64,000 nt of DNA from Acidobacteriota bacterium (GTDB lineage: Bacteria > Acidobacteriota > Terriglobia > Bryobacterales > Bryobacteraceae). The translations under genes were made by a program, and so were the position numbers. Position 1 is the stretch's first letter, and every line of letters begins with the position of its first letter. The notes beneath the pieces are model-generated. The model saw nothing but the letters and a program-made list of their open reading frames with translations, searched no databases and had not been told where the DNA came from. Positions 17,960 to 19,009 of this stretch are shown here, piece by piece. The stretch spans positions 1 to 64,000 of the forward strand of contig VFZW01000002.1 in the NCBI GenBank assembly GCA_016871055.1. The letters are read 5' to 3'.

Positions 17960-18538
17960 CTAGCGTACCGGAGGAGAGGCAGCTACGCAAGCGGCATCGA
18001 TTGGCTTCGAATTCGCGAAAACGGGTACGACGAAAGGCCGGGAGAGAATGGTCCTGGGGGTGACGAGAGCGGGGAGATCTTCGGCTTCACCTTCGCGCAG
18101 GTGCACTTGGCGGAAAATCCGGTCGTTGTGCAGCTGGCGCAAGAGCTTGATCGAACGGTAGAGCTGCATTTCGGCGGCGGCGCGGTAGCGGTTAAGCTGG
18201 GTGAATTGGGCGGCGACTTCGGGGTTAACGAGGGGGTCGACGTCGTCGATGTGGAGTTCATTGAGAAGGGCGTAGATTTTCTCCAGGCGCCAGGCGGCGT
18301 CGCGGAATTGGAGGAAAGCCTCCTCTTCAATGGGACCTTCGGGGTTGAGTTCTTCCCGGAGATTGGCTTCGAATTCGCAAAATGCGTCTTCCTCCGCAGG
18401 CTCGACGTAGAGAAAGCCGAAAGTGAGGCCGTGGCGGGTGTTGTTGCGCGCGGACTTGGCCTTGCCCTCGGGGGTTTTGGGGCCGGTGGAGAGAAGCGCG
18501 TTGGCCTTGTTGGCGACGATTTGAAGGGCGGATGCCAT
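17960..18538 (-). CDS. Uncharacterised protein with N-terminal STGPKTPEGKAKSARNNTRHGLT motif
   Basis: 192-aa ORF, RBS AGGAG overlapping the end of the preceding small ORF; same motif as the ORF at 60909-61568. Confidence 0.7.
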   Translation of the reverse strand: MASALQIVANKANALLSTGPKTPEGKAKSARNNTRHGLTFGFLYVEPAEEDAFCEFEANLREELNPEGPIEEEAFLQFRDAAWRLEKIYALLNELHIDDVDPLVNPEVAAQFTQLNRYRAAAEMQLYRSIKLLRQLHNDRIFRQVHLREGEAEDLPALVTPRTILSRPFVVPVFANSKPIDAACVAASPPVR

Positions 18539-18542
18539 GGGG

Positions 18543-18740
18543 TTACTCCTGGACCTTGATCGGGCGCGCGCCCTTGGGGAGGGCCGAGCGATCGGATAAG
18601 ATGGGTTGCGCGGGGTGGACGCGATTGGCGCGGGCGGATTGGATGAGGCGGAGTTCGGCGAGGGCGCGTTTGAAGTTGCGGGTGGCCCGGTTGGTGGCGG
18701 TGTTGAGGGCGTGCTCGGCGTCGATGGAGTCGGCGTTCAT
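18543..18740 (-). CDS. Uncharacterised 65-aa protein
   Basis: MNADSIDAEHALNTATNRATRNFKRALAELRLIQSARANRVHPAQPILSDRSALPKGARPIKVQE; ATGA overlap with upstream small ORF. Confidence 0.5.
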   Translation of the reverse strand: MNADSIDAEHALNTATNRATRNFKRALAELRLIQSARANRVHPAQPILSDRSALPKGARPIKVQE

Positions 18741-18904
18741 GCGTACGCGTTAGAGATCCAGGCGGCGTGGAGGAGCTGGTTCGTGAAGATTTTTTCGATC
18801 AGATTGGCAGGTTTAATCGACTCTTCCAAGTCGTTTTTCTTGATCTGGAAGGCGTCGATAACGTCCGGGTGGACGATGGCGTTTCGGCCGATTTCGTAGG
18901 GCAT
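18737..18904 (-). CDS. Uncharacterised 55-aa protein
   Basis: MPYEIGRNAIVHPDVIDAFQIKKNDLEESIKPANLIEKIFTNQLLHAAWISNAYA; upstream RBS-like AGGAG and promoter-like elements. Confidence 0.5.
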   Translation of the reverse strand: MPYEIGRNAIVHPDVIDAFQIKKNDLEESIKPANLIEKIFTNQLLHAAWISNAYA

Positions 18905-18981
18905 GTGAGTGGCTCCTGGGCTGCTGGTGTGCCGGAGTGGACTCACGGGGGCGTGGACGGCGGGCGCCGTGGCACAGATAT

Positions 18982-19009
18982 AGGATATCTGCTTTCAAAT
19001 TATTGTCAA
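18982..19009 (-). promoter_or_regulatory. Candidate sigma70-type promoter TTGACA-N16-TATCCT
   Basis: Minus strand TTGACA (19009-19004), 16-bp spacer, TATCCT (18987-18982) in a locally AT-rich patch upstream of the three-ORF unit. Confidence 0.5.

Follow-up and report, generated by a model that had tools for sequence, protein, structure and literature searches.

The minus-strand locus studied here lies in a 64,000-nucleotide stretch of an Acidobacteriota genome (hereafter, the window) and, as judged from sequence comparison, represents a two-gene unit, P1-P2, in a state of decay, in which P2 encodes a protein with a GPKTPEG motif; the family behind this copy is the interesting part. On balance, we consider it probable, by no means certain, that P2 of this dispersed unit is a recognition protein resembling the small terminase subunit (TerS) and that P1 is its partner.

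The three minus-strand ORFs of the original prediction, the ATGA overlap of the first two and the AGGAG sequence just 5′ of the third are all present (Table 1). The promoter-like sequence TTGACA-N16-TATCCT was also confirmed, with 10 of 12 consensus matches; it is the sole such site in 1.6 kb, versus 0.4 +/- 0.5 in shuffled sequences, and similar TTGACA promoters are found 5′ of the relatives L002 and L048. The perfect inverted repeat over its -10 region is a possible operator. The GC3 values of the ORFs (0.75 for the 55-aa, 0.88 for the 65-aa and 0.73 for the 192-aa ORF) are coding-like, including those of the two small ORFs, for which non-coding codon statistics had been considered.

Table 1. 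Features of the P1-P2 locus in the window.
Feature	Position	Strand	Description and basis
Sigma-70-like promoter TTGACA-N16-TATCCT	19009-18982	minus	motif match
Perfect inverted repeat AGATATCCTATATCT	18976-18990	minus	over the -10 region; sequence
ORF P0001, 55 aa	18904-18737	minus	apparent 5′ half of broken P1, predicted helices 1-2
One-base deletion site, TGG-AT	18756-18760	minus	TGGGAG/TGGGAA in relatives; DNA alignment, 11 relatives
TAA stop in frame with ancestral P1	18750-18752	minus	CAA, CAG, GAA or GAG in relatives; DNA alignment
ORF P0002, 65 aa	18740-18543	minus	apparent 3′ half of broken P1, predicted long helix 3
P2, GPKTPEG protein, 192 aa	18538-17960	minus	predicted N-terminal helix-GPKTPEG-helix and three-helix bundle
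STGPKTPEGKAKSARNNTRHG motif, P2 codons 17-37	18428-18490	minus	sequence, alignment
Second exact copy of the 3′ motif, inside P2	18362-18378	minus	encodes CEFEAN; motif search
3′ motif GCGAATTCGAAGCCAAT (family CGAASCCAAT)	18000-18016	minus	motif search

The two small ORFs, originally proposed as two unknown micro-proteins, correspond to the N- and C-terminal halves of a single protein. A search of the window genome (7.1 Mb, 713 contigs) with the GPKTPEG protein gave 17 matches; in the closest ones with intact surroundings, L002 and L003 (45-46% identity to the window protein), a single ~144-aa gene is located directly 5′ of the GPKTPEG gene, and the two window ORFs match its N-terminal and its C-terminal region, respectively. 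When a profile is built from 16 intact P1 proteins, its positions 3-39 match the 55-aa ORF (28 bits) and its positions 47-87 the 65-aa ORF (41 bits). Based on a DNA alignment with 11 relatives, one base is missing in the window after a conserved TGG, and the 1-nt gap recurs in the BLAST coordinates of four other relatives. Since this deletion is accompanied by an in-frame nonsense change, the two ORFs are almost certainly the remains of one ancestral ~140-aa gene, P1, broken here. An assembly error could explain the deletion by itself, but the additional stop argues against this; with two lesions, sequencing error alone is unlikely. A system of micro-proteins was rejected on the basis of the split profile match, the deletion and the stop. 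Because the small ORFs are halves of one broken gene, the ATGA overlap, which had been taken as a sign of joint translation, finds its simplest explanation as a consequence of the frameshift.

Two readings would nevertheless keep P1 functional. It is very unlikely that translation stops and re-initiates at the ATGA and that the fragments re-associate into a working P1: the coding-like GC3 of both halves (0.75 and 0.88), the location of the break between P1 helices 2 and 3 and the overlap of start and stop would fit this arrangement, but P1 is not split in any relative, the window copy has lost the conserved WELERVR that closes helix 2, the second ORF is not preceded by a ribosome-binding site, and P2 looks damaged too. 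Programmed frameshifting that joins both ORFs into P1 is barely credible; the second frame does continue P1 at the expected spacing, with 20 residues between landmarks as in L059, but the TAA lies in the destination frame, there is no slippery heptamer, and the relatives are intact without any shift.

In addition to the loss of P1, the window P2 has no C-terminal segment with the conserved DRExFY found in relatives, so it also seems to be damaged. A further decayed copy, common to the window genome and G007, is truncated in the former and has an in-frame stop in the latter; decay is thus common.

The intact unit was compared at 22 loci of the window genome and its genus (Candidatus Sulfopaludibacter; Acidobacteria/Bryobacterales records). 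P1 (~140 aa, intact in relatives) is located directly 5′ of P2 at 19 of them, with a spacing of 1-2 nt in most named relatives, and no real gene apart from P1 and P2 is common to most of the 22 loci. The dN/dS values between orthologues of the unit range from 0.09 to 0.56. P1-P2 is very probably a real conserved pair, whose order recurs across Acidobacteriota genomes and alphaproteobacterial plasmids. The small ORFs thus do have homologues beside other GPKTPEG genes, as one gene, and what remains of the predicted undescribed small system is a conserved, tightly coupled GPKTPEG-containing unit rather than three genes with two micro-proteins. On four Rhodobacterales plasmids (Marivivens, Sulfitobacter, Aestuarium and Gemmobacter; hypothetical proteins), a P1-like gene overlaps or abuts the GPKTPEG gene in the same order. 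The GPKTPEG part is clear in these pairs (E 1e-12), whereas the P1 similarity is limited to ~38 residues (E 2e-4); they also differ in being plasmid-borne and in their lower overall identity.

P1 and P2 are homologous to each other (profile comparison: 95% probability, E 2e-8, 99 columns), and P1 corresponds, by this comparison, to a P2 paralogue without the GPKTPEG-bearing N-terminal part. AlphaFold predicts one three-helix bundle in both proteins, to which P2 adds an N-terminal helix-GPKTPEG-helix; these models are moderate (pLDDT 78 and 77, with 78 for P2, from 15-16 sequences).

As the original prediction had stated, no known domain is recognised in these proteins: P1 and P2 have no Pfam, NCBIfam or PHROG family above threshold and no match in PDB sequences, Foldseek gave nothing significant against PDB and viral structures, and PADLOC gave no match among 16 P2 proteins. 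The claims that the locus is neither a known toxin-antitoxin nor a known defence pair agree with the lack of a Pfam/NCBIfam match above cut-off for the three ORFs and with the PADLOC result, respectively. The P1-P2 unit is covered by no family library searched. NCBIfam NF041373 (HGG_STG, HGGxSTG domain) resembles the family in a short STG motif, but the score of 11.2 bits is below the cut-off of 29, and the protein is not a member. A viral origin of P2 was rejected, with no P2 in IMG/VR or in 50,697 phage records. In the literature, we found no paper on GPKTPEG or HGGxSTG and none on orphan terminases in Solibacter; an Acidobacteria genome survey names terminases solely as prophage markers (PMC5900883).

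Most other GPKTPEG proteins of the window genome form a second branch (MENEKLSKAEQARINGAKSTGPKTPEG...), whose genes are located directly 5′ of Terminase_6N ATPase genes. The P2 branch is homologous to this TerL-linked branch (profile comparison: 98%, E 8e-14, 130 columns). Thirteen of the 15 Terminase_6N genes in the window genome, counting remnants and fusions, have a GPKTPEG gene or remnant directly 5′ or are fused to one, and one of the remaining two is cut by a contig end. Fused GPKTPEG-terminase ATPase proteins occur in L016/L231 (565 aa), L222 (480 aa) and L223 (~490 aa, with the start in another frame), which, at the level of sequence, strongly suggests that the two work as a pair. The terminase part was confirmed by Pfam (Terminase_6N) and PHROGs matches, and in the L010/L217 unit a third gene weakly resembles the terminase nuclease part. 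In L217 (from 3026 of G000:C130), this gene, which follows a split terminase ATPase, matches phrog_27743 (E 8e-12) and, weakly, TerL, with an apparent frameshift near its end.

In Thermus phage Riverbug and Meiothermus phage MMP17, whose TerL proteins are the closest among phages, a small gene is also located directly 5′ of TerL, and its product appears to combine an HTH-like segment with helices, i.e., a putative DNA-binding and helical layout. P2 is predicted to combine an N-terminal, putatively DNA-binding helix-GPKTPEG-helix with a three-helix bundle (pLDDT 78), a layout that may resemble that of TerS, and GPKTPEG relatives are found directly 5′ of, or fused to, the ATPase (Terminase_6N, PF03237). 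Because of this position and layout, the GPKTPEG proteins would act like a small terminase subunit; for P2 itself, we regard a TerS-like function as an evenly balanced question. The comparisons do not support placing these proteins in a known TerS family, as P2 has no known TerS profile or fold match in Pfam, NCBIfam, PHROGs, PDB sequences or Foldseek. Unlike phage TerS/TerL genes, the GPKTPEG copies are many and dispersed, with no portal, capsid or other phage gene alongside, and no P1-P2 unit, the window's included, has a TerL within a few kb. Another GPKTPEG gene in the window belongs to the TerL-linked branch (L011, 61547-60909, minus strand; MPTKAEQARINGAKSKGPKTPEG...) and is followed on its 3′ side (~60879-60833) by the apparent first ~16 codons of a terminase ATPase (WRAGVAVPDTALEVCP), the remainder being lost.

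The units are dispersed and many share a 5′ boundary, TTCACA..AAAATA. Two P1-P2 copies in G004 are 95% identical within differing flanks, and their similarity begins 217 nt before P1. In other species, P1-P2 units start with a [GT]TCACAACACTNGAAAATAAT motif, and in the window genome the TerL units start with GTTCACARCNCTCGAAAATA; the window's own P1-P2 unit has no recognisable 5′ end motif. All six copies of TTCACARNNNTCNAAAATA in 7.1 Mb are just 5′ of GPKTPEG units, from which the sequence was derived, so that the informative part is solely that it is absent elsewhere. When units are compared, their DNA similarity often begins exactly at TTCACARNNNTCNAAAATA or ~25 bp before it, and that between TerL units begins exactly at the end motif. 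One chromosomal site is occupied by a P1-P2 unit in G004 and by a TerL gene fronted by a GPKTPEG-like helical stretch in G011. No clean empty site or target duplication was found in the genomes compared; the G018 flank stops at a synteny break with no simple empty site, and for other units, genomes without the unit do not have its two flanks side by side. The relatives therefore present multiple copies, common left ends and unrelated flanks, with a variable right end, and several units are vertically inherited. A shared 3′ tail was weakened as a unit-specific end by the tail copies in L215 and L216, which have no adjoining unit.

At the other end of the units, the motif CGAASCCAAT occurs at or just past the P2 stop in 14 of 20 cases. 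With one mismatch allowed and overlapping matches counted, its density is 2.9 per kb at units versus 0.04 per kb in flanks (70-fold). The Marivivens and Aestuarium plasmids have an exact ACGAACCCAATT on the 3′ side of P2, and in two of the four plasmids the sole exact ACGAASCCAATY of the plasmid is located there, on the same strand. Family-wide, ACGAASCCAATC greatly outnumbers its reversed control (in G072, for example, 39 versus 0). In both G072 and G001, most copies of the short motif do not lie near GPKTPEG genes, many being inside unrelated genes, and the motif was rejected as an exclusive companion of these genes. One reading is that it is the recognition site of the GPKTPEG proteins and another that it is a separate dispersed repeat; that it is the site of P2 is a tentative and rather doubtful proposal. 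The second copy within the window P2 may reflect codon usage only. A short motif, (TGACGA)AACGAASCCAATC, is dispersed in G001, G072, G071, G017 and G054 (L143-L182), often in unrelated genes and in any frame, with 18-39 exact 12-mer copies per genome versus 0-1 in the reversed control. Tandem arrays around CGAASCCAAT, with 129-bp and ~96-bp periods, are found in L102 (3892-4763) and L051 (4077-4370), the latter directly downstream of a P2 gene.

In the mechanism that we propose, the N-terminal helix-GPKTPEG-helix of P2 would recognise DNA, and its three-helix bundle would serve oligomerisation. P1, a bundle-only paralogue presumably made from the transcript that encodes P2, would most likely be the assembly partner of P2 in a complex. 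Having no motor of their own, P1-P2 units may recruit a terminase-type ATPase in trans or act as DNA-marking modules, and the candidate recognition (pac-like) site in any packaging or mobilisation would be the CGAASCCAAT motif with which most units end on their 3′ side.

The same observations can be read in other ways. P1-P2 might be an ordinary host DNA-binding regulatory pair that shares an ancient domain with terminase partners, which we consider rather unlikely; P1-P2 units without TerL, purifying selection and the occurrence on plasmids outside any phage context are in its favour, but the genes are multi-copy, patchy and decaying, their 5′ boundaries look element-like, paralogues with 95% identity are found in different flanks, and nearly all TerL-type genes of the window genome are GPKTPEG-linked. 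Alternatively, the two G004 copies (95% identical, similar from 217 nt before P1, in differing flanks), the TerL-unit similarity that starts exactly at the end motif and the site occupied by P1-P2 in one species and by a fused GPKTPEG-like/TerL gene in another would suit small transposable elements with P1-P2 or GPKTPEG-TerL as mobility proteins. This is improbable in our judgement: P1 and P2 match no transposase family and lack the fold of a transposase or nuclease, neither inverted terminal repeats nor target duplications were seen, the right end is variable, and several units are inherited vertically.

Phage-satellite islands (PICI/SaPI) carry their own TerS. P1-P2 units resemble them in having a small-terminase-like gene without its own TerL but, at ~1.5 kb and two genes, have no integrase, replication or capsid-remodelling genes. 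A broader proposal, to which we give little credence, is that these are cross-phylum minimal selfish or domesticated elements that combine a TerS-like GPKTPEG gene with P1 or an ATPase, have a defined 5′ end, and, through a CGAASCCAAT at their own 3′ end that is also present chromosome-wide, direct host-DNA packaging or mobilisation.

The GPKTPEG proteins belong to the multi-copy unknowns of Acidobacteriota genomes, and their adjacency, fusion and profile homology to terminase ATPases and their partners give the family a testable function, with the 3′ motif as a concrete site for testing. If the pac-like reading were true, soil Acidobacteria would hold packaging-type recognition modules by the dozen, dispersed and independent of phages, and possibly a gene-transfer route in hard-to-culture organisms.

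Additionally, both types of unit present hairpins between the promoter and the ribosome-binding site, CCGGA..GTCCGG in P1-P2 units and a strong GC hairpin (GGGCCTCTGACGC...GCGTCCGAGGCCC) in TerL units (L005-L016). The 3′ end of a repeated gene is found just before the 5′ ends of TerL units in the window (~61790-61730, minus strand), L006, L007 and L010, which suggests either an additional companion gene or preferential insertion at such sites.
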